Shown here: positions 30,240 through 63,460 of the stretch, piece after piece | Position numbering within the stretch: the first letter of the stretch is position 1 | How the letters are laid out: each line of letters opens with the position of its first letter | Assembly: GCA_013115135.1 (NCBI GenBank) | Contig: JABANP010000182.1 | Coordinates: 30,041-94,040, forward strand | Length of the DNA stretch: 64,000 nucleotides | Source: Perkinsus olseni | Taxonomy: Eukaryota > Perkinsozoa > Perkinsida > Perkinsidae | Direction of reading: 5' to 3' | The notes under the pieces: model-generated | Seen by the model: the letters and a program-made list of their open reading frames with translations, nothing else | The model's database searches: none | Told to the model about the DNA's origin: nothing | Program-made: the position numbers and the translations under genes

Positions 30240-30261
30240 CTCTCACTGTGAGAGTCTCACA
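30240..30261. repeat. 22-bp palindromic footprint, u = CTCTCACA
   Basis: Perfect u1-7, reverse complement of u, u2-8. The other array copy has the plain 8-mer at 46531-46538. Confidence 0.95.
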
Positions 30262-30449
30262 CACAAAATCTCAGCTTAGGGCCCCCCTAAATATGAAACC
30301 GCTGACGGTTATATGCAGACAAACTGAGGCGCGCGCCAACAACCGTCCCTGCCCTTTCGAACCAGCGGTTCGGCACGGACACTCAGCTCGTGATATGACA
30401 GCCGAGCCAAGTCTGGGATGACCCCAGTGGGGTCTTGTCATCCCTGGTC

Positions 30450-30471
30450 GTTGCGCTGCGCAACTTGCGCA
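30450..30471. repeat. 22-bp palindromic footprint, u = GTTGCGCA
   Basis: Perfect. Plain 8-mer in the other copy at 46726-46733. Confidence 0.95.
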
Positions 30472-30675
30472 GCACGCGGTTGCGATGTCCAGCGATGATC
30501 AGATTGAAACGTTCTTCAATAATGAGCAATACATGAATTGGTTTATCACGTCTTCCTGCTCGAAGGCCTCGACCGAATTCTTCTGCATCTTCCCCAATCC
30601 TAGCGTTCACCAACTCAGTCGCCAGTCCTCCGACGTTTGCTTCAGCTACTGTTAATTATTTTTTACAGCAAATAT

Positions 30676-30960
30676 TCAATGGTGGGCCTCGTACAAAGCA
30701 GAGGCGGGAAACCAAAAGTTTTGCCTGCCCGGCACTACAATAAGCCCCTGCGAGCACCGAGATACTGCATGAGGGCCCCAACAAAGTTGATTGAAGGACT
30801 TGCGTCGCTTCAAATCAAGAATTAATTCATATAAATGGTAAGGGACACCACCTTCGACCCTCTTCCTAGCCTGCTTCAGGAGCGGACAGGAGAGGAGGTA
30901 GTGCCGCGCGATCCCCACCGGCGTCCCACAATACACTCTGGCGAGTTGACCACCCCGCAT
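30676..30960 (-). pseudogene. LINE-like reverse transcriptase C-terminal fragment, copy 1
   Basis: The minus frame reads CGTPVGIARHYLLSCPLLKQ, the C-x-C-G...H-x4-C knuckle common at the C terminus of non-LTR retrotransposon polyproteins. No RT or endonuclease core is attached, so it is a truncated relic. The second copy is at 46937-47215. Confidence 0.6.
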
Positions 30961-31189
30961 CTATAGAGATGGGCTGGGGTTGGGCCCTTTCCGAATACGA
31001 TGGCACTGCTAGTTGCCGTGACTTCCCCGCGTACAGACGAGCGTGTGAAGCGCAGTAAAAGAAGTCGTTTACAGAAGTGCCCGTGCCTTACAGTAAGGCA
31101 GTCTTTTGGCAGAAGTGCCCAAAGACCCTGTTACGGGGTCCCAGTATCACATCCAGGTTCTTCAACACTAGAGATGGGCAAATTTAGGG

Positions 31190-31275
31190 TGTTAACTACG
31201 GAACGGTACCGACTACGGGAACCAACCGTAGCACGGTACGGTTACGGAAGAAGGGTACGGTCCGTACCGTACGGA
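31190..31275. repeat. GTACGG-rich repeat, copy 3
   Basis: Repeated GGTACGG/CCGTAC words. It includes a 14-bp palindromic gain at 31254-31275 relative to the array copy near 47855-47920. Confidence 0.75.
31254..31275. repeat. 22-bp palindromic footprint, u = GGTACGGA
   Basis: Perfect. Plain 8-mer at 47913-47920. Confidence 0.95.
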
Positions 31276-32058
31276 TGACGAAACAACCTGTTTCTCCTTA
31301 TCTGCAGAGTTTGTCAACTCAAGTTGAGTTGACATGGACATTCCAGTCGTTCGAAGTGAAGGCGGCGTGTGAGAAGCATCAGAGCAAAAGAAAATCCGCA
31401 CCTACTTCAGCCACCTCGTGAAAAAAAACCGAGCGTAGCGGCCATAGGCTTGAAGCCTATCGTGCGAACGCCTAACGACGCCCGCCGAAAATCCCGAGGA
31501 AACCAGTCTAGCCCCACTTTCTCCACGGTATGGAAGCGAATAAGGCTGAAAGTTAAAGCATATACGTTTTCGAGCATGGGGAATCCGAATCTACCACTGA
31601 AATTAACTCAGGAAGGACGAGTGATACTGAACACGCAAAACCGACCAGAGAGGGTAATCCCTAAAACTTTTCCTCCCAAAATGTTGATAAATGTACGGAA
31701 GTCGAAGATGATTGCGATAGGGATGTTAACGGTTGCGCAGAAGCATCAGTGTACGGTGGCTGCACGCATCTAAAGTTTAGCTGCTAAATGAGAGTGTTCC
31801 CCCTGCTCATTGACACAACTAGGCGAAAGCCTCTTCTGCACTTACGAAAGAGGCTTGCATATAAGACAATAGCATGGCCACGGTCCTTAGAATTAGAATA
31901 TCACTCGTCTCGGGTGCTCTCCAATACTCAACGAAGTCACATCGACGCCTGTGACACCTCAGCTTATCTGCACAAACCTGGAGTTCCCTCGACAGGGTGG
32001 TCGGGTTTTCATCAGATGTAGACAGGCTCCGTCGCTGCAAACCGCTCAGCAAGAATCA

Positions 32059-32107
32059 TCGACTATCGATCATCGGTATCTAGTAGATACCGACGATCGA
32101 TAGTCGA
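32059..32107. repeat. palindrome, 24-bp arms, one central base
   Basis: 32059-32082 and 32084-32107 pair with one mismatch around G32083. It lies in a roughly 200-bp block present in copy 1 only; GTCGATAG-T-CTATCGAC follows at 32124-32140. Confidence 0.95.
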
Positions 32108-32535
32108 TAGAAGACACAGGATGGTCGATAGTCTATCGACTGTCGTGTGTACTAGCTACCAAAGATAGATATTATCTACCGAAATACTCCACCACGGCCC
32201 CTATGCTGCGCTTACCATCGACAGTAGACTCAGTAGTAGTGTGTCGAGGATCCAAGAATGAGGCAGCAACAGATATATGACCAACGATGTCGTCCTCACC
32301 GTCCACCACCAAGGAGCGCTTGAAGTAATTCTCGACAGAGGATAGTACCCTCAGGACACCAAAGCTCGACTATTACTTGAATACCTTGCTGTGACCGCTT
32401 GCTTGAGCTTCCGACTCAATCCTCGGGTAACTGGCAGTTACTAACTGCCCTTACAGACGATATAGTGGGTAATGTAGACCCCGAAAACTTAATGGTGGCC
32501 TGCTAAAGGTAGCAAGGAGGCTTTGCAAACTATCG

Positions 32536-33081
32536 ATGAGCTCCTCATCTGACGGAGACAAAGCGTTCACAGCATACGACTATATCATGCCTTCATGTAC
32601 AGGGCCTGTACTACAGGCGAAGTTTGTCCGAAGCTCGGATTCCGAACCACGAAGAGCCAAGCATTGCTGTTTATGCCTTGCGAACTTCTCCCTGAATGTC
32701 GAGAACCACGATAACAACTTCTGGGGTGATTCCAGGCTGGAATTTCCAGCGCACCACTACATCCCTAGGTATGACACGGAACCTATGACCATCGGGGACT
32801 CCCTTACCAATGGTCGGAACCCTGACAGGGAGGGACTCTTCCACAGACTGTTGGAGTACATCGAGCACGATGTTCGACTGTCGAATGAATCGGCCATGAT
32901 CACGGAGCTTCTTCAAGAGGTTTCCAATGCCTTTGGTCGATCTATTCGTGCTCCGACCCACATCTTCTCCCCAGGCTTCATCGTACGAGTCGTCAATATC
33001 AGCAGAACCCGACTCGAACCCATCCGCTTCAATTATTTAGTCTGGGCTTTATTGAATTGCTCTGAGTTTTCACTAATTTGA
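32536..33081 (+). CDS. hypothetical frame, probably not a gene
   Basis: 181 codons with no recognised domain. The matching frame in copy 2 (48995-49213) stops after 72 codons because copy 2 lacks the 14-bp footprint at 32729-32750. If the 22-bp form is derived, the long frame is a by-product of that event. Listed because no other annotation covers it. Confidence 0.2.
   Translation: MSSSSDGDKAFTAYDYIMPSCTGPVLQAKFVRSSDSEPRRAKHCCLCLANFSLNVENHDNNFWGDSRLEFPAHHYIPRYDTEPMTIGDSLTNGRNPDREGLFHRLLEYIEHDVRLSNESAMITELLQEVSNAFGRSIRAPTHIFSPGFIVRVVNISRTRLEPIRFNYLVWALLNCSEFSLI
32729..32750. repeat. 22-bp palindromic footprint, u = ATTCCAGC
   Basis: Perfect. Plain 8-mer at 49198-49205. Confidence 0.95.
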
Positions 33082-33101
33082 TCCGGCCCGGACCGTCCGG
33101 G
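33080..33101. repeat. 22-bp palindromic footprint, u = GGTCCGGG
   Basis: One mismatch in the first block. Plain 8-mer at 49536-49543. Confidence 0.85.
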
Positions 33102-33253: not shown

Positions 33254-33785
33254 CGTCAGCTCGGACAAATGTTGTACGTCGGGATCTGTCAGACTTTTTC
33301 GGTCCACCCTCCTGCTGAGTTCGGGCCCACTTCCGAGGTCTTTGAGGTAGGTTCCCTACGATGTAACGGCTATGGTCACTCGAACGCGGTTTGTCTACGG
33401 ACCATTGGAGTGAAGTTACCGCATTAGCATAATTTGGGGCCCGGGATCTAACCCCACGAGAAACCGGTAGTTCTTTGCGGACAGTTTGATTTGCTCACTC
33501 GATGTTCATCTCGGAGTAGTCGGAGTAGGGACAGTCTCACCTCGCCACTGGTTCCGTATTCCTAATGCGGTGGACGAGCGCCCGACTGCGAAGCCGACTG
33601 TTGAGCACGACGCGTCAAACGCGTCCTGTTTAAACTGTCATAGTTCGATTCGGCGAATCGGATTTGCGCATGCGTCAATTCGGGCTAAGCGACTTTCCGC
33701 AGCCGCTGCAGGTTTGGGGAGGTCCGAAGCTCTCGTACGAACTCGCTGGAACAGGTCTGAGGATGTGAGATTCTCACAGTGAGTC

Positions 33786-33807: not shown

Positions 33808-34020
33808 TGACATCCACTTCCCTCCAAGGACCCGGAAACTTCGGGCCAAAACCCAGCTCCAGACTCATTGTGGAATTCTACTAAGGGCCTTGTGCACACT
33901 CAGCTTGAGTGACTCAAGTGCCCACTTTTGTTGAGGGTCCCTAAGTTGAGGGAGCTCTTGATGAGTGGTCACTACAAGAGGTTGTACAAAAGAACAAAAA
34001 CATTCACGGGACGCCCGGCA

Positions 34021-34935: not shown

Positions 34936-36593
34936 ATGGCCACCTTCCAGCAGCTCATTCTCCTGCTCTGCTCCGCTCCTGCGCTGATAATGGTGGACGG
35001 TGGCTTAGCTCCTGAGAGTGCCGGCAACGACAACAACAACCTGCAACCCATTCCCGAAGAATGCCTCGGTGGTTTCAGAAGCTCGGCCTTTCGAGGGTGA
35101 GTTCGAACTTCCCTGGGCGGGGTTCATCGTTCCATGGGAGAGCGCCTACAAGAGAGGGCGCCTCGATTCTTCTATATCACGATATCCCGAGGATGTTTTG
35201 CTCTCATCAGTGAGATATGCATGCCGCCCTTCTTGAACCATATGATCGTGCAAGCGGCCACATCGACAATCAGGGACGAGCTAAGGAGTAAGTGAGAGAG
35301 ACCGCCCGTTGGGATACTAATCTGTCACTCAGGCAAGATGTCAGTGACAAAACCTACTTCCTGGTTGAGCTATACCATGTCACTTTCTCCGAAGAGGGTA
35401 AGACGGGTATGAGCTAGCTCAGGCGCTGGCCCGGCGCCGCTGTTTCTTGTTATCTCCTCAACATTTCCTCGTCTTCCCCAGGTGCGACTTATGAGAATCA
35501 GCTCCGTGTTGGCCCACAAGACTACCTCATTCATACCGTGATTGAGGAACCCCGCCAAGATCAATCAGCTGACCTCCCTCAGTTCATTGTCCGCACTGTT
35601 GAGGTCGTCTCGTTGACCCCAAGGAGACATCTTATGCCCCACGAGTCCCCAATATTCCGTAGGATGCTCCAAACGAAGACCACTGTGGCCCCAGAAAGTG
35701 AGAAGTTCAGCTTCACAACTCAGATCGATGGGGTCCTTTGGGGCAAAACTACTCTAACACGTTCTTATTATCGCCACATGCCTCCTGAGGGCGTCGAGAT
35801 CAAGGGGATACTCATACAGTACCACGGTTGGGGTGGCTCATGCGAGGAGTGGGAGAAGTACTCTAAGACGTCCACTTTTACCGATGAACACGGCCTGATT
35901 TTGATAACCGCCTGCGGGAGTAATTACGGATGGCATTCAAGGGCTCTCTACTCGGTGAACGGATGGAATGCGGGTACCTGCTGCATTCAGAGACAAGACA
36001 TCGACGATGTGGAGTACACGAAGATTATCCTCGAGAGGGAGAACAAAAAAAATCTGCCCGTCTATGGTTACGGTTACAGTAATGGTGGTATGATGGTGGA
36101 ATCCCTTTTGTGCCACAAAGTCATTCAAGGAGCCGTCGCCGTCAATGCTGTATTGGCTTTGAATCCTGGTCTACAAGGGAGCTTCAAGACCTGTGATAAT
36201 ATCTATAATAATGCTTCCTTGGGTCCAAAGCCTTCAGTGCCAAGGGTGGCCAGTGTACACTGCATCGATGATGAAGTCGTTCCCTACAAGGGTTCAGTCT
36301 TGAGCAAAGATGATACTATCTGGGGCACCGCCACTCTTTTCCCAAGAACCAACAGAGATATCAGACGTTGGGCCCGTAGATTCGGATGCGCGGAGAAGGA
36401 CACTACTTTGGCTCCGTTCAACGGGACATCACTGAAGGAGTGGAACTGTCCAGGAGAGCAGCGCACCGTCTCTATCAAGAGGTCCAACTGTGGCAAGGAC
36501 AAAGGGTGGCTCGAGTACGCCCATTCTGTTGTCAGAACCGACGAGTTCGACCCGGCCAAATGGGCTGTTGATTTCTTTCTTCACCTTGACTAA
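34936..36593 (+). CDS. secreted PHB-depolymerase/feruloyl-esterase-like hydrolase, gene A
   Basis: Near-identical to gene D (51382). Exons 34936-35096, 35211-35291, 35333-35397, 35482-36593 give 472 residues. The signal peptide is MATFQQLILLLCSAPALIM. The alpha/beta-hydrolase domain in exon 4 has ILIQYHGWGG (oxyanion strand-turn), nucleophile GYSNGG, acid HCIDDEVVPY and base EYAHSVV, as in LpqC/PHB-depolymerase-type esterases. Relative to D, 7 bases are missing at the exon 2 donor. The GTAAGT donor created there shifts the frame, but GTGAGA a few bases on keeps it, so splicing decides whether A is functional. Confidence 0.85.
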
Positions 36594-37789
36594 TCTTTTC
36601 ATTAGGCCTTCAGCTGCAAAACTGGTCAGCTGCTTCTACTTCTCCTCATTCCAGCAGAACTTCATTACCCTGCCATAATGGCCATGGCGTTAATGATGAG
36701 TTCGGGATGTATGACGATAATCGGAGTCTGATCAGCGGACTCAATCTTTCTATTTCCGCATTTCTTTGTAGAACATTTCCCCGTCTTTCCTACGTTGGCA
36801 CTCAAAGCGTGAATGCAATTTCCCCTACCCTCTTCGACACGCATGATTGCATCCGTTGTCTGCGCGGCGTAGTATTACCAAGTTCGTTGAGATAGTCACT
36901 GTGACATAGTCACACAAGTTTATATAAAATACCGTTGATTCAACACCGGTATTCCAGGATGTCTTCGAGTAGTGTTTGGTCACAGCATTCAGGTTGGTGA
37001 ACATTCCGGAGGCCAGAGGAATGGGAGTACTTTAGAAGTACTACTTCTCGTTCTCATGCTATCTCTGAAAATATCTGGCTCGGGTCTCGTTGGCTCGAGC
37101 GCATCGGTCGTCACACAAGCGTTGTCTTCGTGAATACGAGCTGATATTGCGCTGTAACGTGATCGACATATTGAGGTACATGCTCATTGATCATAGGGCA
37201 GATCGTCAGCAGCAGATAGTGCAGATCCCAGGGCCTGAAAGTAGTCAGCCCTGCTGGAGACTACTTTGAGCACATCCTACTCACAGTACGTTCAATCCTA
37301 TGACAAGGAATGCACGCAGTTGCTGGGGCGAACAGACGTACAGCGAACAAAGGCGCACAGGGAGCATGTGAGTTCGCAGCAGCAATAGAGGTGGCTGTCG
37401 CTAGAGTGCATGCGTGCCACGCGGCGGAGGGACGGATGGACGCACGACTGCCAAAACCACACTACGGAACCAGTTGTAGGTAGCGAGTTTGGGATTATCG
37501 AGAAACACTTCTACCGCACAAGCTCTCCGTGAGAATCGCTAGAATAGTTTACCGTCTGCCGCCGACTAACGATACGCAGGAGCCTTTTAGACCCAAATTG
37601 AAAGTCATTCTTACCAGAGTGCACACCAGCCGAGGGTACTGTTGTTTCTCAACTACACTAGCCTTGTGCAGCGAGATGTTTGTGCGGCTGTCTGCTTCCT
37701 CCTAGTGTTTTGCTACAGACTATAGCCTAAAGCGTGTCCCTCACGAGGCCTCGGAATGCAATCAAACGGGTGGGCTCAGGGTACGTTCA
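36594..37789. other. spacer between esterase A and B
   Basis: No supported gene. The part to 36971 belongs to the repeated unit. 36972-37789 is absent from the second array because a deletion there joins unit A's 3' flank to the tail of B. Confidence 0.6.
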
Positions 37790-39467
37790 ATGACTGCCCT
37801 GCAACTCCCCCTCCTGCTGCTCTGCTACGCTCCAGCAGCTGTTCTGATACTGATGGACGATGAAGCAGCTTCTGCGAGTGTCGGCAATGATAAACTTCAA
37901 CCGTTTCCCGCTGAATGTCGCGGAGGTTTCAGAAGCCCGGCCTTCAGAGGGTGAGATCGAATTTCCCTGGGTGATTCGACTGGTTGACTACGGGAATTAT
38001 CTGAGGACGATATCCTGAAGATGTTTTGTTCTCATCAGCGAGATATGCGTGCCGGCCTTCTTGGACCAAATGATTGTGCACATTGCCACACCGACAATAC
38101 GGGACGAGCTCAGAAAACTAGGGTGAGTTCAGGAACAAACACACGCGGCGTGTGACACGCCTTTTGATACGGCTTTGATAATTTTCCCTCTGGTTGAACG
38201 TAAGTGACAGAGGCTTCTTCAACGTTGAGCTATACAGTGTGACCGTCTCAAACGAAAGTAAAGCGGTTACGAGTTGTCTCAGCTCAGTGTCGCTGTTCCT
38301 CATAATCTCCTCGTCCCTCCCCTTGCTTCTCAGGTACAACTCATGAGGACTATCTTAGTGCAGTCCCTGGAGGCTACCTCATCTATACCGTGATTGTTGA
38401 GACCCCGCATGATCCATCAGCTCTCTCTCCCAGTTCACTGTCCGCACCGTCGAAGTTCTCTCGATGTCCCCAAGGAGGTATCTCATGGCCCACGAGACTC
38501 CAGTACGTAGGATGCTCCAGGCTGAAGACCTGATGAGCCTGAGGAGGAGACTGAGCCGAAGGATACCCCAGGAAGTGAGAAGTTCAGTTTCAATGTGGAG
38601 ATTGATGCATCGTGGTGGCAATGGGATGATGAAAGAACTATAACACGTTCTTATCATCGCCGCCTCCCTCCTGAGGGCGTCGTGATCAAGGGTATACTCA
38701 TACAGTACCACGGTTGGGGTGGCACATGCGAGAAGTGGGAGAACTACTCTATGACGTCTACTTTCACCGACGAACACGGCCTTATTTTGATAACCGCCTG
38801 TGGTAGTAACTTTGGATGGTACTACACTTCGGGTTGGTACGCGGGGGTATGCTGCGTTGACGATCATAGAATTGATGATGTTGGGTACACGAAGACTTTA
38901 CTTGAAAGAGAAAACAAGAACAACTTGCCCGTCTATGGCTATGGTTACAGTAATGGTGGTATTTGGAATGTCTTATGTCATAAAGTTTTCAAGGGGCCGT
39001 GGCCGTCAGCGGTGTACTTGCTTTGGAGCCTGGTCTAAAAGGTAGTTTCGACACCTGTGATGATATGTATAATGACGCTAACTTCGGGCCGAAGTCGCCG
39101 GTGCCAAGAGTGGCCAGCATGCACTGCATCGATGATGAAGTGGTGCCATACAATGGCTCAGAACTGAACCCCCCGAGTCCTGGCTCGCCTTGGCCTCAGA
39201 CCAAGTTCCCGAGAACCAACAGGGATATCAGACGTTGGGCCGGTAGGCTCGGATGCGCGAGGAAGGAGACTACCAAGACTGAGTTGAATGAAGAGATGAC
39301 ACTGAAAGAGTGGAAGTGCCCAGGAGAGGAGCGCGTCGTCTCTACTTATAAAGAGGTTCGACTGCGGCAAGGACAAAGGGTGGCCCGATTTAGCCCATTC
39401 TGTTGTCAGAACAGACGAGTTCGACCCTGCAAGATGGGCCGTTGATTTCTTTCTTGGTCTGAACTAA
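37790..39467 (+). pseudogene. esterase-like gene B, degenerate
   Basis: Exon 1 (37790-37950, 161 nt as in A) encodes signal peptide MTALQLPLLLLCYAPAAVLI. Exon 2 is 38039-38122. The exon 3 acceptor has lost its AG (CTCTGG where paralogues have TTTCAG). Exon 4 has several frameshifts: near 38430, a small deletion at about 38955 just after GYSNGG (giving GGIWNV), and one near 39350. The nucleophile motif GYSNGG and HCIDDEVVPY survive. The last codons read as in A up to the stop at 39465-39467 in another frame. Confidence 0.8.
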
Positions 39468-39854
39468 TCTTTTTATCAGGACTTCAGCTGCGAAACTGAT
39501 CAGCTGATCCTACTTCTGATTCCAACAGAGCTCCATTACCCTGCCAGAATTGCCATGGTGCTAATGAGTAGCTCAGGATGTATGATGATTAGATCCGAGT
39601 ATATTTCATTTCCGTTCGACAGATTCCCGTCCCTTACTACCTTAGCCGACGAGGTGTATGTGCCACTTCCCCACACCTTCGACACGCGATGATTGCATCC
39701 GTTGTTATTCCTGTGTACTACGCAGTGCGTAGTAATATCAACTTTTTCATAAGATAGAGTCACTTGAATTTCTATGAAAGACCTTCCACTTAACACAGGT
39801 CTTCTACCTTATTCTCGTAGTAGTGTTGAGTCCCAGCAGTTGCAAGGATGACGG

Positions 39855-39876
39855 TCTAGAACTTCTAGACTAGAAG
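39855..39876. repeat. 22-bp palindromic footprint, u = TCTAGAAG
   Basis: Perfect. Plain 8-mer at 54008-54015. Confidence 0.95.
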
Positions 39877-40343
39877 GCTAACGGAAATGAATCGCTTTAC
39901 GTTTTCTATCGTTGCAATATAAATTATCACGCACCATGCATTTTCAGAGACGACATGGTAACAGCATGTATCTCATGAATCCCCACAGTCACAGCAGTGG
40001 GATACAGCAATGCTGTAACAGCATGCGCAATCTAACGAGTCCCTTTCGTGTCACCGGCACAACTTTTTACCCAGAGCTCATATGGACCTGAGATTTCAAC
40101 TATGAGCTCTCCTCACACTGCTATATGGTTTAAACATGTCGCGGACCGAATTATCGAACAAAAAATTTCGAATCTCGGGCCGAGATATTTGTAGCAATCA
40201 CTTTTCGTCTTCGTGGCCTTTCGATGACTGTAACTAGTGGGAAGTCAGAAAGCTCATTCATGAATGATAAAGATGGTTCAGCAGTCTCGCACTGCACGCG
40301 ATGATGCAAACCTGTGGAAGCCCAAGCTGAATTTCGAGCTGAT

Positions 40344-40733: not shown

Positions 40734-40956
40734 GCTCCGTGAGTCTGAAAAGGGGGTTTCGGATCCTGCCAGAAGGAAAGGAAGCTGATCTGGTTGACTG
40801 TGCGGTACAGTCTGTCCCCCTGAGGAATGCTTCTTGACAATCTGTCTGATGGCATTGCATGTCGGATCGACACTGTCGAGACTACAGAGCCTCCAACTGA
40901 AGTTCAGTTACTGAACACATCGCCAAGAGTATAACTAAACCGGAACCGGCGTATGA

Positions 40957-40998
40957 CTATAAACTCACTGTGAGTTTATAGACAAACTGTGAGTTACT
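40957..40998. repeat. palindrome in B-C spacer, 12-bp arms
   Basis: CTATAAACTCAC-T-GTGAGTTTATAG within this interval. The second array has a longer version with 18-bp arms at 54757-54793. Confidence 0.85.
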
Positions 40999-41087
40999 CA
41001 CACACAGGAGGTCGCGCAGTTGGGTCTGTGCCTACCTTAGTCGAAATGCTCGAGGGCAAGGCGAACTCTGAAGCCTCACCCGAGAAG

Positions 41088-41109
41088 AAGCAGACTCTGC
41101 TTAGCAGAG
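41088..41109. repeat. 22-bp palindromic footprint, u = AAGCAGAG
   Basis: Perfect. Plain 8-mer at 54897-54904. Confidence 0.95.
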
Positions 41110-41139: not shown

Positions 41140-41580
41140 CAGCCTAGCCTGGGCTAGCTGTTGGGCTAGCTGTTGGGCGAGCTGTTAGGCTAGGGCCCAA
41201 CACAAAGCTACAGCACGCGAAAACAAGGAGTCTGACTATGTTGAGGAAGGACGTAGGGTCCAGACTCTGGGAGATCATTTTGCGAACCGAACCGCTCGGC
41301 GGTCCGTGGGCATCAGGAACGCGCGTACACGCGAATCTCGACTGGAATGGATAGAATATGCTATAATTCCCATTATACTCGACCATCATGCCCCTCCCGG
41401 GAGATGGTGAGTAAACCAGTGCGGTTGTTATTACTAATAAGCTCGCACGCATTGCGGCTCGCAATTTGCGAGCGCATAAACGGACGCACTGCTAGCTGAG
41501 ACCCTCAGCTAGCTGAGGGACAATGTCCCTCAGCCTGAGGGACAGTAGCGTCCCTCAGCTAGTGTTCCTGGGGCACTGTC
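41140..41580. repeat. hairpin-rich 5' flank of C-type esterase genes
   Basis: GGGCTAGCTGTT-like tandem words (41150-41190) and TGTCCCTCAG-C-CTGAGGGACA (41524-41544). The flank recurs upstream of E (about 54960-55380) and F (about 59390-59700), so it probably contains the shared promoter region. Confidence 0.6.
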
Positions 41581-42585
41581 AGAGAGGCACCAAGGAGTCT
41601 TACTTAGAGAGTGAGCTTGGACGTATCCTCGATGATGCGATGATCGATGATTACCAACAATACACAACAGCAGCGAAGTTCAACTATGATAGTTGAGATA
41701 ATCTCCACTGCTGCAGGGGATTGGCACCATAGTGCGTCCAGTTCGCGACTTACCCGGCATGAATTGGTAATCAGCCGTGATGACGTTAGGCGCTGAAAGA
41801 ATTGAGCTGTGCACCGGTAATGCATGGTTTGACCTTGCAGACATTATCGCAGACTTGGATATCCTCGTAAGTATGGTTGCATCACAGCACCTCGTTGCTC
41901 TGCTCTACTTCCCCCCGGCAGCGGTTCTGGGACTGGTAGACAATGCTGGCGGAACCCTCAGGAGAGTCGGCAGGAGAGACGCCTTGCATCCCATTCCTCT
42001 ACAATGCCTCGAAAATGACATCGATGATCCGGTGTCTTTCAGGTGAGTGACTCTCTCGGCCTGGCCTCTCTCATCCGACGATCTCCTGAGGATGTTCTGC
42101 TCTCATCAGCGAGGAATGCATCCCGCCTTTCTTGAATCGGATGCTTGTGCAGGCAGCTACCTCCAGGATGAAAGACGAGCTCAGGAGAATGAAGTGAGTG
42201 AGAGGCCTCACGGTGAGGCCCTCACCTGCTGAGATAATAATCTGCCATCCAGGCTACATGTTAGCGACAATACCTACTTCGAAGTTTATTCGTATAGGGT
42301 GAACTTCTCAGACAAGGGTAAGGCGGGTTCGAGCTGCCTCAGGTCGGCTGAGCTGATTTCTCGAAGGCATCACTGTATCATTGAGATGAATTATGTCACA
42401 TAGTATCTGCTCCTTTCATATCCGTCTCAGGTGTAACCTTCACGAACAAGCTTCTTGTACTCCCTCAATATTACTCCATCGACACCGTGATCGATGAGCC
42501 CTACCAAAACCAGTCAGACGACGCTCCTCAGTTCAGCGTCCGAATCTCAATTGGCCTACCCGTGGTTAGAGGAAGACATATTGTG

Positions 42586-42607
42586 ATCAAGGTCCTTGAT
42601 TCAAGGA
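42586..42607. repeat. 22-bp palindromic footprint in esterase C, u = ATCAAGGA
   Basis: Perfect. Plain 8-mer in copy F at 60780-60787. Shifts the reading frame. Confidence 0.95.
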
Positions 42608-42907: not shown

Positions 42908-42929
42908 ACACGGAATCCGTGTCACGGAT
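42908..42929. repeat. 22-bp palindromic footprint in esterase C, u = ACACGGAT
   Basis: Perfect. Plain 8-mer in copy F at 61088-61095. Shifts the reading frame. Confidence 0.95.
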
Positions 42930-47956: not shown

Positions 47957-48730
47957 TTATCTGCAGAGTTTGTCAACTCAAGTTGAGTTGACATGGACAT
48001 TCCAGTCGTTCGAAGTGAAGGCGGCGTGTGAGAAGCATCAGAGCGAAAGAATTCGAAAATCCGCGCCTACTTCAGCCACCTTGTGAAAAAAACGGAGCGT
48101 AGCGGCCATAGGCTTGAAGCCTATCGTGCGAACGCCTAACAACGCCCGCCGAAAATCCCGAGAAAACCAGTCTAGCCCCACTTTCTCCATGGTATGGAAG
48201 CGAATAAGGCTGAAAGTTGGAGCATATACGTTTTCGAGCATGGGGAATCCGAATCTACCACTGAAATTAACTCAGGAGGTACGAGTGATACTTTTTTTTA
48301 CGGTCCGTAAACCATTCGACGGAATGGAGTAGGGAGAGGACTATAATAATGCTATAAAGCTATAACCCTCTCGCTAAAGCAACGAACCGCGCGACATTAA
48401 TAGTGTTTTCACGAACAAAGTCGTCTTTATCCTCCATAATACGAGAATGCCCGAAACATTGAATTCGAATATTCTCATATTTTTGGCAATCGAATAATCT
48501 AATAATATTAGACTAATAGCATGGCCACGGTCCTTAGAATTAGAATATCACTCGTCTCGGGTGCTCTCCAATACTCAACGAAGTCACATCGACGCATGTG
48601 CTACCAAAGATAGATATTATCTACCGAAATACTCCACCACGGCCCCTATGCTGCGCTCACCATCGACAGTAGACTCAGTAGTAGTGTGTCGAGGATCCAA
48701 GAATGAGGCAGCAACAGATATATGACCAAC

Positions 48731-48752
48731 GATGTCGACGACATCATGTCGT
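48731..48752. repeat. 22-bp palindromic footprint, u = GATGTCGT
   Basis: Perfect. Plain 8-mer at 32286-32293. Confidence 0.95.
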
Positions 48753-49481
48753 CCTCACCGTCCACCACCAAGGAGCGCTTGAAGTAATTCTCGACAGAGG
48801 ATAGTACCCTCAGGATACCAAAGCTCGACTATTACTTGAATACCTTGCTGTGACCGCTTGCTTGAGCTTCCGACCCAATCCTCGGGTAACCGGCAGTTAC
48901 TAACTGCCCTTACAGACGATATAGTGGGTAATGTAGACCCCGAAAACTTGATGGTGGCCTGCTAAAGGTAACAAGGAGGCTTTGCAAACTATCGATGAGC
49001 TCCTCATCTGACGGAGACAAAGCGTTCACAGCATACGACTATATCATGCCTTCATGTACAGGGCCTGTACTACAGGCGAAGTTTGTCCGAAGTTCGGATG
49101 CCGAACCACGACGAGTCAAGCATTGCTGTTTATACCTTGCGAACCCCTCCCTGAATGTCGAGAACCACGATAACAACTTCTGGGGTGATTCCAGCGCACC
49201 ACTACATCCCTAGGTATGACACGGAACCTATGACCATCAGGGACTCCCTTACCAATGGTCGGAACCCTGACAGGGAGGGACTCTTGCACAGACTGTTGGA
49301 GTAGATCGAGCACGATGTTCGACTGTCTAAAGAATCGGCCATGATTACGGAGCTTCTTCAAGAGGTTTCCAATGCCTTTGGTCGATCTATTTGTCCTCCG
49401 ACCCACATCTTCTCCCCAAGCTTCATCGTAGGAGTCGTCAATATCAGCAGATGCCTCGAACCCATCCGCTTCAATTATTTA

Positions 49482-49503
49482 GTCTGGGGCCCAGACTCAG
49501 GGC
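49482..49503. repeat. 22-bp palindromic footprint, u = GTCTGGGC
   Basis: One mismatch. Plain 8-mer at 33042-33049. Confidence 0.85.
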
Positions 49504-49673: not shown

Positions 49674-49695
49674 GCAGGCGCCGCCTGCCAGGCGG
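49674..49695. repeat. 22-bp palindromic footprint, u = GCAGGCGG (copy 2)
   Basis: Perfect. Plain 8-mer in copy 3 at 62945-62952. Confidence 0.95.
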
Positions 49696-50227
49696 CGTCA
49701 GCTCGGACAACTGTTGTACGTCGGGATCTGTCAGACTTATTCGGTCCACTCTCCTGCTGAGTTCGGGCCCACTTCCGAGGTCTTTGAGGCAGTTTCCCTA
49801 CGATGTAGCGGCTATGGTCACTCGAACGCGGCTTGTCTACGGACCACTGGAGTGAAGTTACCGCATTAGCATAATTTGGGTCCCGGGCTCTAACCCCACG
49901 AGAAACCGGTAGTTCTTTGCGGACAGTTTGATTTGCTCACTCGATGTTCATCTCGGAGTAGTCGGAGTAGGGACAGTCTCACCTCGCTACTGGTTCCGTA
50001 TTCCTAATGCGGTGGACGAGCGCCCGACTGCGAAGCCGACTGTTGAGCACGACGCGTCAAACGCGTCCTGTTTAAACTGTCGTAGTTCGATTCGGCGAAT
50101 CGGATTCGCGCATGCGTCAATTCGGGCTAAGCGACTTTCCGCAGCCGCTGCAGGTTTGGGGAGTTCCGAAGCTCTCGTACGAACTCGCTGGAAGAGGTCT
50201 GCGGATGTGAGATTCTCACAGTGAGTC

Positions 50228-50249
50228 TCACTGACTCAGTGACACTGAG
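50228..50249. repeat. 22-bp palindromic footprint, u = TCACTGAG (copy 2)
   Basis: Perfect. Plain 8-mer at 63494-63501. Confidence 0.95.
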
Positions 50250-50462
50250 TGACATTCACTTCCCTCCAAGGACCCGGAAACTTCGGGCCAAAACCCAGCT
50301 CCAGACTCATTGTGGAATTCTACTAAGGGCCTTGTGCACACTCAGCTTGAGTGACTCAAGCGCCCACTCTTGTTGAGGGTCCCTAAGTTGAGGGAGCTCT
50401 TGATGAGTGGTCACTACAAGAGGTTGTACAAAAGAACAAAAACATTCACGGGACACCCGGCA

Positions 50463-50484
50463 CTACAGTCACTGTAGTACAGTG
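50463..50484. repeat. 22-bp palindromic footprint, u = CTACAGTG (copy 2)
   Basis: Perfect. Plain 8-mer at 63588-63595. Confidence 0.95.
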
Positions 50485-53615: not shown

Positions 53616-54756
53616 TCTTTTTATCAGGACTTCAGCTGCGAAACCGATCAGCTGATCCTACTTCTGATTCCAACAGAGCTCCATTACCCCTGCCAGAATT
53701 GCCATGGTGCTAATGAGTAGCCCAGGATGTATGATGATTAGATCCGGAGTATATTTCATTTTCCCGTTCGACAGATCCCCGTGCCTTACTACCTTAGCCG
53801 ACGAGGTGTATGTGCCACTTCCCACACCTTCGACACGCGATGATTGCATCCGTTGTTATTCCTGTGTACTACGCAGTGCGTAGTAATATCAACTTTTTCA
53901 TAAGATAGAGTCACTTGAATTTCTATGAAAGACCTTCCACTCAACACAGGTCTTCTACCTTTCATTCTCGTAGTAGTGTTGAGTCCCAGCAGTTGCGAGG
54001 ATGACGGTCTAGAAGGCTAACGGAAATGAATCGCTTTACGTTTTCTATCGTTGCAATATACATTACCATGCACCATGCATTTCTCAGAGACGACATGGTA
54101 ACAGCATGTATCCTCATGAATCCCCAATCACTCATCAGTCGCAGCAGTGGGATACAGCAATGCTGCAACAGCATGCGCAATCTAACGAGTCCCTCTCGTG
54201 TTACCGGCAATAACTTCTCACCCAGAGCTCATATGGTCCTGAGATTTCAACTATGAGCTCTCCTCACATTGCTATATGGTTTAAACATGTCACGGACCGA
54301 ATTATCGACAGTGTCTCGAATCCTCGGCCCGATATATTTGTAGCAATCACTTCTCTCTTCGTGGCCTTTCGATGACTCGTAACTAGTGGAAGTCAGAAAG
54401 CTCATTCATGAATGATAAAGATGGTTCAGCAGTCTCGCACTGCACGCGACATATGCTTCGGATGATGCAAACCTGTGGAAGCACAAGCTGAATTTCGAGC
54501 TGAGTCGGATACGGACTCCGTGAGTCTGAAAAGAGGTTTCGGATCCTGCCAGGAGGAAAGGAACCTAATCTGAGTTGGACTGCGTACGGTACAGTCTGTA
54601 CCCTCGAGGTCCTCAGGCTGAGGAATGCTTCTGACAATCTGTCTGATGGCATTGCATGTCGGATCGACACTGTCAGAGACTACAGAGAGTCTCCAACTGG
54701 AAGTTCCAGTTACTGAAAACACATCGCCAAGATTATAACTAAACTGGAACTGGTGC

Positions 54757-54793: not shown

Positions 54794-55634
54794 TGTGAGT
54801 TACCTCACACAGTGAGGTGCAGCGCAGTTGGGTCTATGCCTACCTGAGACGAAATGCCTCGAGGGCAAGGCGAACTCTGAAGCCTCACCCGAGAAGAAGC
54901 AGAGGAGAGCAAACTCAGAGAGAGGACAGCTAGACAGCTCTAGCCTGGGCTAGCTGTTGTTAGATAGCTAGCTAGCTAAGCCAGCTAGCCCAACACAAGC
55001 TACAGCACGCGAAAACAAGGAGTCTGATCTATGTTTGAGGATAGCACGTAGGATCCCAGACTCTGGGAGATCATTTGCGAACTGAAACCGCCTCGGCGGT
55101 CCGTGGGTTTCAGGAACGCGCGTACACGCGAATCTCGACTGAAATGGATAGAATATGCTATAATTCCCATTATACTCGACATCATGCCCTCCCGGAGATG
55201 GGTGAGTAAAACCAGCGCGGTTGTTATTACTAATAAAGCTCAGCACGCATTGCGAGCGCACTAAACGGACGCACTGCTTAGCTGAGGCCCTCAGCTGAGG
55301 GACACTGGTCCCTCAGCCTGAGGGACAGTAGGTCCCCTCAGCCTGGAGGACAGTAGCGTCCCTCAGCTAGCTATCCCTCAGCCAGCGTTCGCATCAGCGG
55401 ACAGGGTCACTAGGAAAGCAACCGGCGACAGTAATCTTCCCTAACCCTAGCAGGGCAGTGTTCCTGGGACACTCTCACGGAGAGCGTCTGAGAGCCTCTC
55501 AGAGAGCACCAAGGAGTCTTACTGTAGGAGTGAGCCTGACGCATCCCCGATGATGCTAGACCAACACGACACAAACAGCAGCAAGTTCAACTATCTCCAC
55601 TGCTGCGGGATTGGCGCGCCAATGGCGGTGCCAA

Positions 55635-57390: not shown

Positions 57391-60077
57391 AAATTTTCTA
57401 TTAAAACAGCTGGATCAGCTGCTACGTTCATCCCGGCATGTCACATGCGACATGTTTCAACTTTTTCAGTGAGTGCATCATTCACGACGATTACGCTCAT
57501 GAGGCGTGTAGCTTGCACGCCAGAAGCAGATTTGCATGATGATGATCACGGATCAGATCCGAGTCGAGCATCACTTTCCGTACATCATTCTCGCATTATT
57601 TACATTGTCTTGTCCCAAGTCATGACTTGTGGCATCCAACGCGCATGTGCCAGGCTTTTTCCTGTTCCTCATCCGGCATGTGATGGGCCGCTCGCGACCC
57701 GATGCGCTCATGACGGGCAGCATTCTGATGCGTAGTATCATTTATATTATCAGGATCAGAATGATCCGATCATCCCTGATAGGGCAGGATGGGATAACAG
57801 GAATCGTTCAAAGACATTATCCTTTCAAGACGCTTCTCGCGTGGCATCGTCGAGTCGTGTTAGGAGTATGAACAACCTCGGGGGGCGCTCGACCTCGCAC
57901 CAGTTCGAAAATTGAGTCATCCAAATGGCTTCGAGATTCTGACTGATGTTTGTTAACATCTTAATAACAATGCGCGAGAGGAAGCGAGTTATAACCACCC
58001 AAAAGACTTCGAACTTCGAATCTAGAGACCCTTCGAAGTTCGAAGGGCCTCTAAATTCCAAGTGCTCGCTCGGAGCGCGCCTAGTTGGCTTATGTGACTC
58101 ACAGCCTAGCCGCGCCAGTCGATGCTTCATAACGGAACAAAGACAACACGAATCGAAATGGACATCATTTTACAGGCTCCATGGTTCAACCGGACAACCT
58201 GGTACAAACACTCCGATATTTTGCACACATAGTTTTCCGCCATCTCCCAGTTGTATCAAGCTCCCCTCTACTGCAACTATTTCCAACCAGGAGGTTGTCT
58301 GATGCCAAATCAACCGAATACCTCTCAATCCACCATGACAAAGCCGATAAAGACACCTGATGGGAGCAAGCCCATCTCATTGCCCAGTAGAGCTAGCTGG
58401 CGAGGGCCTCGCCCGGATACTATTCAACCAAAACCATTCCGAAAAATTTTCGGCGAAAACACTGGGATCCCCTTAGATGCGCATTATGGTGTGAACTACT
58501 ACCAAACGCGATTCTCAAGGGTACTCTTTCCTGCCCGCAGATACGATGCTACCAATTTCAGTGACGTTACATCATCGTCCTCAAGCGAGGCGAAGCGTCA
58601 CGATGCAGACCGAGTGATGGCCGAATGTTCAACAGCGAGACTCCACCATTACTCACTTCTGTCTCCTGACCATAACCATCCGCTCTCGACGGCTCAGCCC
58701 TGAGCACAGCTCGAAAGAATTCTGCCACCTGAAAGGCGGACCGATACGGCCCGCATTGTGGGCCCCACAAGTATACTAACCGCAGCACCATCACCTCAGA
58801 CTCTCGCAACGGCGTTCCTAATCACTCAAGGATACCCTTCTGAATATCTTCGGTGTGATCTCCTCTCCATTATCACTGAGCTTGAACACCCGCGCTAGCC
58901 ACTTGTGGCAAGCCGGGGCATCGAAAGGTGATTCCAAGTATTCCAGAATTGCCTGAACATTATAAACTGCCAACGATGTTGTCCCCGGCAGTATTTCCAT
59001 CCTGTTAGTCCATCGAAACTGCTGCGAGTGTGGGTTAATCTATCACCTCGATGCAGTGACTGCAATCAAGGAAGGTCAATACTGAAACAGCGTATAATCT
59101 GGACCCGGCCGTCACCGTAATATGCATAACGGGGTATGTGCCCTGCTAGCCCTTCTACGCTACATCTCAGCTAGAAAGGATTGAGGCAGAGAGACCTCTC
59201 AGTGAGAGTCTTCTTTCGTCACGAAAATTTCACATGATACTCGTCAGGTGCAGCCGCCCAAGAGAGGCGAGCATGGGCTGTCAGTATCTGACTCGTTGCC
59301 GACTTATTTCGATCTCTATTCATAATCAGAAGACTATCTGCGCGCGCAGTATACTGTGTAAGCATGATCCAACCGCGGTGTAGCTAAGCTAGCTAGCCCA
59401 ACACAAACGCTACAGCACGCTAGACAAGGAGTCTTACTATCTTGAGGAAGGACGTAGGATCCAGACTCTAGGAGATCATTTTTCGAACCGAACCGCTCGG
59501 CGGTCCGTGGGCACCAGGAACGCGCGTACGCGAGAATCTCGACTGAAATAGATAGAATATGCTATAGTTCCCATTATACTCGACCAGTATGCCCCTTCCA
59601 GGAGATGGTGAGTAAACCAGTGCGGTTGTTACTACTGATAGGTTCGCACGCATTGCGAGCACACAAACGGGTGTACAGCTTGCTGAGGGACACTGTCAGA
59701 GAGGCACAAAGGAGTCTTATATAGGCAGTGAGCTCTGACGTATTCTTGATGATGCTAGACCAACAACACACAGCAGCAGCGAAGGTCAACTATCTCCACC
59801 GCCCCTGCGGTCCGCAGCGGGCTGCGGATTGGGCACCATAGTGCGTGGAGTCGGACTCCAGGAGTCCAGTGTGCGGACTATTTTCGGCCGCGCAAGGTGC
59901 TTGTGCGGATGTCTCCTTTCCCGGATCGTTTCTGCGTACGCCGCGCGACTTACCCGGCATGAATTGATAATCAGCCGTGATGACGTTAGGCGGTGAAAGA
60001 ATTGAGTTGTGCATCGGTAATGCATGGTTTGACCTTGAAGACACTATGGCAGCGCAGACTTGGATATCCTCGTACGT
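57391..60077. other. spacer between esterases E and F
   Basis: Starts with the E 3' flank. 57870-59380 is largely unique. About 58150-58260 resembles 28585-28690 (the Cys-rich start of the 28-kb minus-strand candidate), suggesting a duplicated gene piece: minus-strand frame MAENYVC... and ...LNHGACK. CCCTTCGAA-G-TTCGAAGGG lies at 58029-58047. From about 59390 the C-type 5' flank begins. Confidence 0.5.
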
Positions 60078-62029: not shown

Positions 62030-62490
62030 GAGCGACGTGGCTCTCACGGCATTGGGGAATGGACTGCAAGACGAAGAGGATGCTGATAAATTGTGAGCAG
62101 CAGGATGGTGCTAGTCGGGTCGGTGTAGTCAAGAAATATAAGCAGTTGGGAATACTTATAACGGATGGGCCCGGATACTCAGAGTCTATAAGAGCTCGAA
62201 TCCGCTTTGCTGGAGCAAATTTACATAGCCTTGGAGATATATGGAAATCGCATGATATGGGCTTAGAAGGTAAGATGACTATAATGAGATCAATAGTTTT
62301 CGGCGAGAGTACATACCAACAGTACTCGACGAGCTGGTAGACCCCGTCAAACTTGGCTAGATCTGGTTAAGCAGGATATGAAAGATATTGGTGTGAGACC
62401 CAGTACTGCTAAAAATCGAGCACCATGGGAGAGAAGCATCAGGCTAGGCTGCAATATGCCTCTGCAATATGATCGAAAACAACAATAAAA
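62030..62490 (+). pseudogene. LINE reverse transcriptase C-terminal fragment
   Basis: VVKKYKQLGILITDG, then GYSESIRARIRFAGANLHSL and EGKMTIMRSIVFGE are the thumb/connection region of non-LTR RTs (YLG, RI..A, K.....L..G). After a frameshift at about 62337 comes GRPRQTWLDLVKQDMKD with PWERSIRL, a typical LINE tail. It is 5' truncated and followed by an A-rich tract. Confidence 0.8.
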
Positions 62491-62628
62491 AACAACAATA
62501 AAAATTAAAAATAGAGAAAAAAGAAAGAGGAAAAAAAGAAAACATTGTTTTCAAAACAAAAGAAAATAAAAGAAAAGAAAAAAAGAAACAAGAAAAAGAG
62601 AGAAAAAGAAAAGAAAAAAATGAAATGT
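62473..62628 (+). repeat. A-rich tract after the LINE fragment
   Basis: About 155 bases nearly without C or T on this strand (AAAAACAACAATA, then AAAGAAAAGAAAA). Probably an expanded, degenerate poly(A) tail of the inserted LINE. Confidence 0.75.
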
Positions 62629-62856
62629 AGCATTGCAAATAGTCTGTGTTTGCATGCGATACCATTATGATTATTGAAGAAGACCCAGCTATGTCTCACG
62701 AGGCCGCATCGCCTATCTTAGAGAGGCTATCTACTTATTGTGGTTTGGATCGCCCTACCAAGAACCTTACAAACTCCAACATTGCCCTCATGGTGGTTTG
62801 GAGTCGCCTGGCCGTATGGCGGCCGCGAGCGAGAGAGAAAGGTCTGGAAAAGGTAT

Positions 62857-62878
62857 ATATTCACTGAATATTATTCAG
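62857..62878. repeat. 22-bp palindromic footprint, u = ATATTCAG
   Basis: Perfect. Plain 8-mers at 33172-33179 and 49614-49621. Confidence 0.95.
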
Positions 62879-62889
62879 TGAACGAGGTG

Positions 62890-62911
62890 GCCTGGCGGCC
62901 AGACTCCGGCC
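62890..62911. repeat. 22-bp palindromic footprint, u = GTCTGGCC
   Basis: Two mismatches. Plain 8-mer at 49633-49640. Confidence 0.8.
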
Positions 62912-63358
62912 ACCCCTGCTTACTGGTCATTGACAGTCGATACGGCAGGCGGCGTCAGCTCGGACATCTGCTGTGCGTCGGGATCTGTCAGACTTATTCG
63001 GTCCACTCTCCTGCTGAGTTCGGGCCCACGACCGCTTCCGAGGCCTCTGAGGCAGTTTCCCTACGATGTAGCGGCTATGGTCACTTGAACGCGGTTGGTC
63101 TACGGACCACTGGAGTGAAGTTTGCGCATTATCAAGATTTGGGGCCCGGGCTCTAACCCCACGAGAAATAGTTGCGGACAATTTGATTTGCTCACTCGAT
63201 GTTCATTTCGGAGTAGTTGGAGTAGGGCCAATCTCACTTTGCCGCTGCTTCCGTATTCCTAATGCGGCGGACGAGCACCCGACTGCGAAGCCGACTGCTG
63301 AGCTCGTAGTTCGATTCGGCGAATCGGGTTCGCGCATGCTTCAATTCGGGCTAAGCGA

Positions 63359-63380
63359 CTTTCCGGCGGAAAGTTTCCGC
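63359..63380. repeat. 22-bp palindromic footprint, u = CTTTCCGC
   Basis: Perfect. Plain 8-mers at 33693-33700 and 50135-50142. Confidence 0.95.
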
Positions 63381-63421
63381 AGCCGCTGCAGGTTTGGGGA
63401 GGTCCGAAGCTCTCGTATGAA

Positions 63422-63443
63422 CTCGCTTCCAGCGAGTCGCTGG
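63422..63443. repeat. 22-bp palindromic footprint, u = CTCGCTGG
   Basis: One mismatch. Plain 8-mer at 50184-50191. Overlaps the next unit; together they add 28 bp. Confidence 0.85.
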
Positions 63444-63460
63444 AACTTCCAGCCTGGAAG
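63439..63460. repeat. 22-bp palindromic footprint, u = GCTGGAAG
   Basis: Perfect. Plain 8-mer at 50187-50194. Confidence 0.95.

Follow-up and report, generated by a model that had tools for sequence, protein, structure and literature searches.

Palindromic 22-base units in the genome of Perkinsus olseni as probable excision footprints of hAT-type transposons

Background

The genome of Perkinsus olseni, an alveolate parasite of molluscs, contains palindromic units of 22 bases, each built entirely from an 8-base word, u, of its own location. The first seven bases of u are followed by the complete reverse complement of u and then by its last seven bases (u1-7 + rc(u) + u2-8). We describe these 22-mers in a stretch of 64,000 nucleotides (hereafter the window; contig JABANP010000182.1 of assembly GCA_013115135.1, positions 30,041 to 94,040), where diverged copies of an array carry at corresponding places either the plain 8-mer or the 22-mer, and in further loci of the same genome. 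Unit length and geometry are fixed, the words themselves differ from site to site, and the genome harbours hAT elements flanked by 8-bp target duplications. On these grounds we propose, with considerable confidence, that each 22-mer is the scar of a departing hAT-type DNA transposon.

Results

A palindromic rule of unit length 8

Scanning of the window with the rule at unit length 8 returned 33 exact matches, 22 with one mismatch and 27 with two. Other unit lengths gave no exact match at 6, 7 and 9-13 and a single one at 5. Twenty first-order Markov resamplings of the window contained no exact and no one-mismatch match, and six two-mismatch matches in total. The original prediction, made from the letters of the window alone, had held that the rule exceeds chance and that the centre of the first palindrome is always the complement of u8; both statements are correct, and the centre of the second palindrome is likewise the complement of u1. 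The range 30240-63460 in which it had placed the units holds 27 exact, 18 one-mismatch and 21 two-mismatch matches. It proved too narrow, as six exact, three one-mismatch and four two-mismatch matches lie upstream of it. Density along the window is uneven, with 2, 1, 1, 9, 10, 11, 11 and 10 exact or one-mismatch units in successive 8-kb segments.

The assembly carrying the window comprises 61.5 Mb in 968 contigs. An open frame of 351 amino acids in the arrays finds its nearest proteins in P. olseni, the best at 95% identity. Counts for the non-redundant set refer to a sample of loci from the assembly, the window included, in which identical stretches of at least 300 bases were masked, leaving 286,352 non-redundant bases. 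This sample contains 132 exact 22-mers against 0.001 expected. The excess anticipated by the prediction beyond the window was found in these loci. The 189 sites of 22-mers comprise 152 different u, counted regardless of strand. Base preference within u is weak, at most 0.065 bits per position among distinct exact 22-mers with full flanks (67 before the flank filter), and runs towards G at u1, pyrimidines at u2-3, purines at u6-7 and C at u8. The units thus have no common sequence, as predicted, which rules out a mobile repeat of shared sequence.

Four stretches of 10 kb were picked by contig number, regardless of content. Two of them lack 22-mers at up to two mismatches and the other two contain two and three exact ones; the pair shares the same u and lies within a tandem repeat. 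Extrapolated to the whole genome, these 40 kb suggest several thousand exact copies, which is a rough figure.

Length and offset are fixed

Products of the general form u[1..k-o] + rc(u) + u[o+1..k] were counted for unit lengths k of 5-11 and offsets o of 0-3, which makes 28 classes. The 132 matches belong to k = 8, o = 1, and none of the 27 other classes approaches this one; at k = 8 the offsets 0, 2 and 3 gave 0, 0 and 1. Together with the Markov resampling, this matrix rules out chance. The class k = 10, o = 3 is represented five times (0.001 expected). This excess is a by-product, because all five enclose a 22-mer that starts one base inside (four exact, one with one mismatch). Mild excesses were seen at k = 7, o = 3 (19 versus 4.4), k = 6, o = 3 (131 versus 70) and k = 6, o = 2 (10 versus 4.4). 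The class without any middle bases (u1-7 directly followed by u2-8) occurs 185 times at k = 8; its definition sets fewer conditions and its counts are elevated at k = 9 and 10 as well (43 and 23), and we read it as tandem repeats.

When the length of the middle part was left free at k = 8, 128 distinct cases had a middle of 8 bases, and each other length from 1 to 70 was represented by 1-16. Among palindromes with arms of exactly 7 bases, 324 have a one-base centre, 31 no centre base and 22 a two-base centre.

Homologous copies alternate between 8 and 22 bases

Alignment of the array copies in the window showed the indel peak at 14 bases that the prediction had led us to expect: 28 gaps of 14 bases, compared with four each of 13 and 15 bases, where a single insertion can recur across several pair alignments. 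Two of the 28 (insert GCCGCCTAATTATT) break the rule. Sixteen 22-mer sites of the window have an 8-base counterpart elsewhere in it, which spells u exactly in 15 cases and has one changed base in the remaining one.

The same alternation was observed when the 80-base flanks of 205 exact or one-mismatch 22-mers were used as queries and the distance between their homologues was measured. A distance of 8 was found at 219 places and one of 22 at 205, and every other length at no more than 7 places (overlapping loci included); the plain 8-mer is identical to u in 172 of the 219. Reduced to one representative per u, the non-redundant set has 104 places with length 8 and 52 with length 22, whereas 28 differ from both; 156 of 184 are thus 8 or 22. 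Among the other lengths, some deviate from 8 or 22 by a few bases or contain a second 14-base step (36), and others are longer insertions, none of which was recognised as a hAT element. Where a family has many copies, the 22-mer is often rare among them, which points to a gain of 14 bases rather than a loss. The site AGCCGAAG, for example, has 15 plain copies, and AGCTGGTG has 8, besides a copy that carries a longer insertion.

Pairs of palindromes with other spacings

A two-palindrome test required two palindromes with arms of at least 4 bases and a shared u, the left one centred on u8' and the right one on u1' (a prime marks the complement). At k = 8 it yielded 139 distinct cases, of which 112 are 22-mers and 27 have other spacings; k = 5, 6, 7, 9 and 10 yielded 46, 16, 5, 0 and 0. 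One case, at a spacing of 688, is a 22-mer copied in tandem, which leaves 26 unmerged cases. At least two pairs of these are related copies (L057 and L062, numbers of sampled loci; 40969 of the window and L020), and two cases with spacing 13 are simple sequence. The unmerged palindromes have arms of 5-28 bases and usually enclose filler, which reaches about 150 bases. The window contributes nine of the 27, of which one is weak.

A palindrome beside a resident element

At locus L076 (contig C378), the 8-mer ACTGTGCG is followed by the element start CAGGGTGGCTGAG. The far end of the element is missing and is replaced by a palindrome of the right flank with 18-base arms, whose centre, T, is the complement of u1. 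L077 (contig C300) is a related, slightly changed copy. A flank hairpin at a resident element would leave such a structure if it were opened well behind its tip and then joined to the truncated element.

hAT elements in the genome

The hAT dimerisation domain (PF05699) was found at 21 places in the genome, and one open frame of 595 amino acids combines DUF4371 with the hAT dimer domain. A 1264-bp element with inverted ends CAGGGTGGTTGA resides in an array copy on contig C557 (L011), flanked by the exact 8-bp duplication CTTCGTGT. Five relatives of 770-819 bp carry exact 8-bp duplications at other places. If inverted ends beginning with CA are required, exact duplications of 8 bp occur 13 times (6 distinct insertions), those of 6, 7, 9 and 10 bp never and those of 5 bp once; the six insertions all belong to the family of the 1264-bp element, whose loci had been selected for the sample. 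The end pattern of this family has 119 matches in the genome at no more than one mismatch, compared with 34 for the reversed control. We regard the CAGGGTGG family as putative hAT by virtue of its 8-bp duplication and its CAGGG-type ends, which are typical of hAT elements. The window itself yielded no element that combines inverted ends with an 8-bp duplication.

Several insertions were considered as element-occupied forms, or as further elements, and rejected. The 458-bp insertion of L072 lies 12 bases away from the GCTGATAT site, and inspection by eye revealed no 8-bp duplication at the 490-bp insertion beside AGCTGGTG. An insertion of 292 bp within a relative of the hAT element (L079, 177-468) has the 8-bp duplication AACTTTCC; no inverted ends were seen by eye and no 22-mer is listed there. 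The candidate element of L004, with ends TAGAGATGGGCA, sits where GTCCGGAG is repeated three times, which leaves its duplication with little weight. A 490-bp repeat is nested in the hAT element of L011 (about 506-995) and recurs at many other places without a clear duplication.

Sites in the window

The sites are collected in Table 1. Some 22-mers, among them units with two mismatches, adjoin or overlap one another (63422-63460, 50206-50249 and 15210-15277). Individual places may have received more than one hit. Gaps below 60 bases separate exact or one-mismatch 22-mers in 6 of 54 cases, where 2.6 would be expected and 1000 random draws gave as many as 9, so that there is no firm excess of close spacing. 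All except two of the 55 exact or one-mismatch 22-mers (53) lie outside the 8.1 kb similar to 29 compared proteins. The 22-mers at 42586 and 42908 sit in one copy of an esterase-like gene, which is probably broken because they add 14 bases each.

Table 1. Palindromic 22-mers, unmerged palindrome pairs and the empty target site of the hAT element in the window
Feature	Positions	u or target	Basis and remarks
Exact 22-mer	6042..6063	GTCCTGAC	Rule scan
Exact 22-mer	15234..15255	GTACTACT	Rule scan
Exact 22-mer	21212..21233	ACCTCAGG	Rule scan
Exact 22-mer	29782..29803	TCATGAAG	Rule scan
Exact 22-mer	29997..30018	GTATCGGG	Rule scan
Exact 22-mer	30107..30128	ATCTCAAT	Rule scan
Exact 22-mer	30240..30261	CTCTCACA	Rule scan; plain 8-mer in copy at 46531
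Exact 22-mer	30450..30471	GTTGCGCA	Rule scan; plain 8-mer in copy at 46726
Exact 22-mer	31254..31275	GGTACGGA	Rule scan; plain 8-mer at 47913
Exact 22-mer	32427..32448	GTAACTGC	Rule scan
Exact 22-mer	32597..32618	GTACAGGC	Rule scan
Exact 22-mer	32729..32750	ATTCCAGC	Rule scan; plain 8-mer at 49188
Exact 22-mer	38140..38161	CACACGCC	Rule scan
Exact 22-mer	39855..39876	TCTAGAAG	Rule scan; plain 8-mer at 54008
Exact 22-mer	40003..40024	TACAGCAT	Rule scan
Exact 22-mer	40895..40916	AACTGAAC	Rule scan
Exact 22-mer	41088..41109	AAGCAGAG	Rule scan; plain 8-mer at 54897
Exact 22-mer	42205..42226	GCCTCACC	Rule scan
Exact 22-mer, in protein-similar stretch	42586..42607	ATCAAGGA	Rule scan; plain 8-mer at 60780
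Exact 22-mer, in protein-similar stretch	42908..42929	ACACGGAT	Rule scan; plain 8-mer at 61088
Exact 22-mer	46071..46092	TCATGAAG	Rule scan; u as at 29782
Exact 22-mer	46396..46417	ATCTCAAT	Rule scan; u as at 30107
Exact 22-mer	48731..48752	GATGTCGT	Rule scan; plain 8-mer at 32286
Exact 22-mer	49056..49077	GTACAGGC	Rule scan; u as at 32597
Exact 22-mer	49674..49695	GCAGGCGG	Rule scan; plain 8-mer at 62945
Exact 22-mer	50088..50109	CGATTCGC	Rule scan
Exact 22-mer	50228..50249	TCACTGAG	Rule scan; plain 8-mer at 63494
Exact 22-mer	50463..50484	CTACAGTG	Rule scan
Exact 22-mer	59846..59867	TGGAGTCC	Rule scan
Exact 22-mer	62538..62559	GAAAACAA	Rule scan
Exact 22-mer	62857..62878	ATATTCAG	Rule scan
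Exact 22-mer	63359..63380	CTTTCCGC	Rule scan; plain 8-mer at 50135 and 33693
Exact 22-mer	63439..63460	GCTGGAAG	Rule scan; overlaps 63422 site
One-mismatch 22-mer	7219..7240	CAGGAAAG	Rule scan
One-mismatch 22-mer	29280..29301	TACTAACT	Rule scan
One-mismatch 22-mer	29758..29779	GTATGCTT	Rule scan
One-mismatch 22-mer	30413..30434	CTGGGGTC	Rule scan
One-mismatch 22-mer	33080..33101	GGTCCGGG	Rule scan; plain 8-mer at 49536
One-mismatch 22-mer	33646..33667	CGATTCGC	Rule scan
One-mismatch 22-mer	33897..33918	CACTCAAG	Rule scan
One-mismatch 22-mer	37027..37048	GTACTTCT	Rule scan
One-mismatch 22-mer	39711..39732	CTGCGTAG	Rule scan
One-mismatch 22-mer	41451..41472	ATTGCGAG	Rule scan; plain 8-mer at 55249
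One-mismatch 22-mer	46047..46068	GTATGCTT	Rule scan
One-mismatch 22-mer	47935..47956	GTTTCTTC	Rule scan; 8 bases (one change) at 31290
One-mismatch 22-mer	48498..48519	TCTAATAT	Rule scan
One-mismatch 22-mer	48886..48907	GTAACTGC	Rule scan
One-mismatch 22-mer	49482..49503	GTCTGGGC	Rule scan; plain 8-mer at 33040
One-mismatch 22-mer	50339..50360	CACTCAAG	Rule scan
One-mismatch 22-mer	53862..53883	CTGCGTAG	Rule scan
One-mismatch 22-mer	58439..58460	CCGAAAAT	Rule scan
One-mismatch 22-mer	58749..58770	GCCCACAA	Rule scan
One-mismatch 22-mer	63312..63333	CGATTCGC	Rule scan
One-mismatch 22-mer	63422..63443	CTCGCTGG	Rule scan; overlaps 63439 site
One-mismatch 22-mer	63485..63506	CAGTGAGA	Rule scan
Unmerged two-palindrome footprint, arms 22 + 6	12667..12710	GTGAGAAT	Two-palindrome test
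Unmerged two-palindrome footprint, arms 7 + 21	15279..15335	AGTGGTTG	Two-palindrome test
Unmerged two-palindrome footprint, arms 21 + 8	21044..21093	TCGCAGAT	Two-palindrome test
Unmerged two-palindrome footprint, arms 5 + 10	24737..24771	CAAGTACG	Two-palindrome test
Unmerged two-palindrome footprint, arms 12 + 7	40962..41002	AACTCACA	Two-palindrome test; related copy in L020
Unmerged two-palindrome footprint, arms 15 + 17	47288..47359	CCCGCGTA	Two-palindrome test; 64-bp insertion versus copy at 31027
Candidate unmerged footprint (weakest), arms 5 + 5	49237..49277	TCAGGGAG	Two-palindrome test
Unmerged two-palindrome footprint, arms 8 + 9	55281..55324	GCTGAGGG	Two-palindrome test; stretch also a TRF tandem repeat
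Unmerged two-palindrome footprint, arms 6 + 9	58007..58045	CTTCGAAG	Two-palindrome test
Empty target site of 1264-bp hAT element	36016..36023	ACACGAAG on +	Element present in C557 copy; duplication CTTCGTGT in L011

Other features of the window

A repeat of about 583 bp (30499-31082) has at least 35 genome copies of varying length among the 40 of 174 candidates that were scored, and is good ground for finding element-occupied sites. The paired copies near 54503 and in C557 lack an insertion of about 383 bp (40345-40728), related copies of which occur on other contigs. Between array copies, an open frame of 423 amino acids on the minus strand (44659-45930) shows a weak match to Rep_ORF2/G2P (PF23343; 20.5 bits, cut-off 27.8), and is a possible candidate for an HUH replication protein.

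Discussion

A model of excision and repair

We infer the former element at each site, the position of the nick, the annealing step, the enzymes and the joining pathway from the structure of the products, as follows. A hAT element would insert with duplication of eight bases, giving u-element-u. At excision, each flank would be nicked by the transposase at a distance of one base from the element; the 3' end thus freed would attack the other strand, sealing the flanks as hairpins with tips u7-u8' on the left and u2'-u1 on the right. A host nuclease would then nick the hairpins eight or more bases behind the tip, leaving the 3' tails u8'...u1' (left) and u1...u8 (right). Each tail derives from one copy of the duplication, so the two would be complementary over exactly eight bases; a script run on made-up sequences gave this complementarity in 3 of 3 examples, as it would for any u. 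After annealing over these eight bases, trimming of the extra flap and ligation, the product would be u1-7 + rc(u) + u2-8, always 22 bases in place of the 8 of the empty site. Tails failing to anneal would give two separate palindromes, often with filler. As to the repair proteins, one partial Ku match above cut-off (28.3 bits) and nine DNA_pol_A matches (eight above cut-off) were found, from which nothing is concluded. The original prediction saw a mutational process acting on local sequence, with no mobile sequence involved. Its first half stands, as the inserted bases are all local; its second half is probably wrong, since the length of 8, the one-base offset, the complemented centres and the hAT elements speak for the involvement of a mobile element.

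Several observations weigh against this model. No hAT-occupied allele was found among the homologous places of 115 of the 189 sites, the number for which the sampled loci offer such a place, nor did split matches among the scored candidates (40 of 174 and 40 of 211), judged without reading the letters, reveal a hAT element at a 22-mer. Conversely, the joined flanks of five hAT insertions, searched genome-wide, have plain-length relatives at all five 8-mers and no 22-mer, as judged from the letters in L073-L078 and from match lengths elsewhere. Only six hAT insertions with exact duplications were read, a small number beside the scars, which makes it necessary to assume many cycles or families since lost. 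With any inverted ends allowed (12 of 14 positions), 28 candidates have 6-bp and 14 have 8-bp duplications, and none 7, 9 or 10. Short footprints of the plant type, that is, middles of 1-3 bases, are represented by 5, 1 and 10 distinct cases and do not rise above background. The hairpins would have to be opened at least 8 bases from the tip, farther than is usual elsewhere. The share of 112 in 139 overstates the uniformity of repair and is an upper estimate, as arms below 4 bases and perfect repairs are invisible to the test. Finally, L076 and L077 represent one event in two related copies. Their count carries little, since a one-sided test without any condition on the element end gave 76, 25 and 9 cases at k = 7, 8 and 9, of which 12 (one being the L076 place), 1 (L076) and 2 begin with CA or TAG; the weight lies on the identity of the L076 end, absent from the listed others.

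Alternative explanations

A different DNA transposon superfamily with its own hairpin chemistry might be responsible. Several superfamilies duplicate 8 bp, for example KDZ/Zisupton, Merlin and P, and may also be represented in this genome. We nevertheless consider this origin improbable: hAT elements and domains are present in the genome, the element that bears the one-sided scar has the terminal sequence of the hAT-like family, and it is for hAT that a cut one base outside the element and flank hairpins are described in PMC5873905 and PMC1978519. A slightly smaller chance is left to the idea that hAT transposase scars its target without any resident element, an abortive attack producing an 8-bp staggered, hairpinned break that is repaired to the 22-mer. 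An 8-bp stagger with flank hairpins would suffice for the geometry, and the lack of an element-occupied allele at the 22-mer sites of the sampled loci would be accounted for. To our knowledge, however, no such reaction is known for hAT transposases, and the palindrome beside the element in L076 and L077 suggests that hairpins form at a resident element.

Explanations without a transposon fare worse. Polymerase template switching, or snap-back copying, would insert local bases only and would create palindromes, in likeness to the short local inverted insertions known as template-switch mutations. Such mutations have variable unit lengths; in P. olseni neither the length nor the offset varies, since among the 28 classes only length 8 with offset 1 reaches this strength and nothing similar appears at neighbouring lengths. 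We therefore rejected template switching and hold it to be very improbable. For an assembly or sequencing artefact, which we regard as extremely improbable, no supporting evidence was found; the 22-mers are common to diverged copies, carry later substitutions and divide families of copies.

Comparison with known systems

The closest likeness is to the footprints of hAT elements (Ac/Ds, Tam3, Hermes), which share complement-centred palindromes and joining by microhomology. PMC5873905 describes Ac/Ds footprints as inverted repeats that have at their centre the complement of the bases next to the element, with palindrome arms of up to 20 bases in yeast and putative microhomology in 85 to almost 100% of Arabidopsis and 88-89% of yeast footprints; 28 kinds of footprint were seen in 128 events in Candida. 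PMC1978519 puts forward a similar hairpin model for Ds, citing Tam3 and Hermes, and explains by flank hairpins a Ds element with an adjoining 598-bp inverted repeat, which recalls L076. The P. olseni scars agree with hAT footprints in the 8-bp duplication, in complementary centres on both sides, in varying palindromes with or without filler, and in the presence of hAT domains and elements. They differ in outcome. Elsewhere hAT footprints are diverse and mostly short, whereas in P. olseni one product, the full inverted duplication, accounts for 112 of the 139 detected two-palindrome scars. The hairpin chemistry is already known, and it is the near-uniform outcome that looks new. Among the titles and abstract openings listed by literature searches, older footprint papers excepted, none described such units in Perkinsus or a 22-bp scar as the dominant hAT product, a coverage that does not establish novelty exhaustively.

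Palindromic bases also arise in V(D)J coding joints, where flank hairpins are opened. RAG/Transib hairpins arise from a cut at the edge of the element (offset 0), with duplications of 5 bp; in P. olseni, offset 0 yields no case at length 8 and one at length 5 (0.27 expected), and the fixed length and offset rule out RAG-like hairpins. GC clusters and organellar double-hairpin elements, which are short palindromic mobile repeats with a shared sequence, resemble our units as short palindromic insertions at many places. They differ in that each 22-mer of P. olseni is built from its own target.

Conclusions

We are inclined to believe, with less assurance than in the origin of the single scars, that hAT excision in P. 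olseni is channelled mainly into one joint, in which far-opened hairpins provide 3' tails that pair over the full inverted 8-bp duplication. Each such departure would write a self-identifying, datable record of 22 bases, and repeat-rich DNA would constitute a genome-wide departure log of probably thousands of entries, including those of families now gone. Scars of cut-and-paste transposons are normally short and ambiguous, so that past departures cannot be counted from a genome. Those of P. olseni name their own 8-base target with near-certainty against chance, and the traffic of hAT elements, its age and its choice of targets could become readable from an assembly. The pattern further suggests that this protist repairs hairpin-capped breaks in one dominant way.

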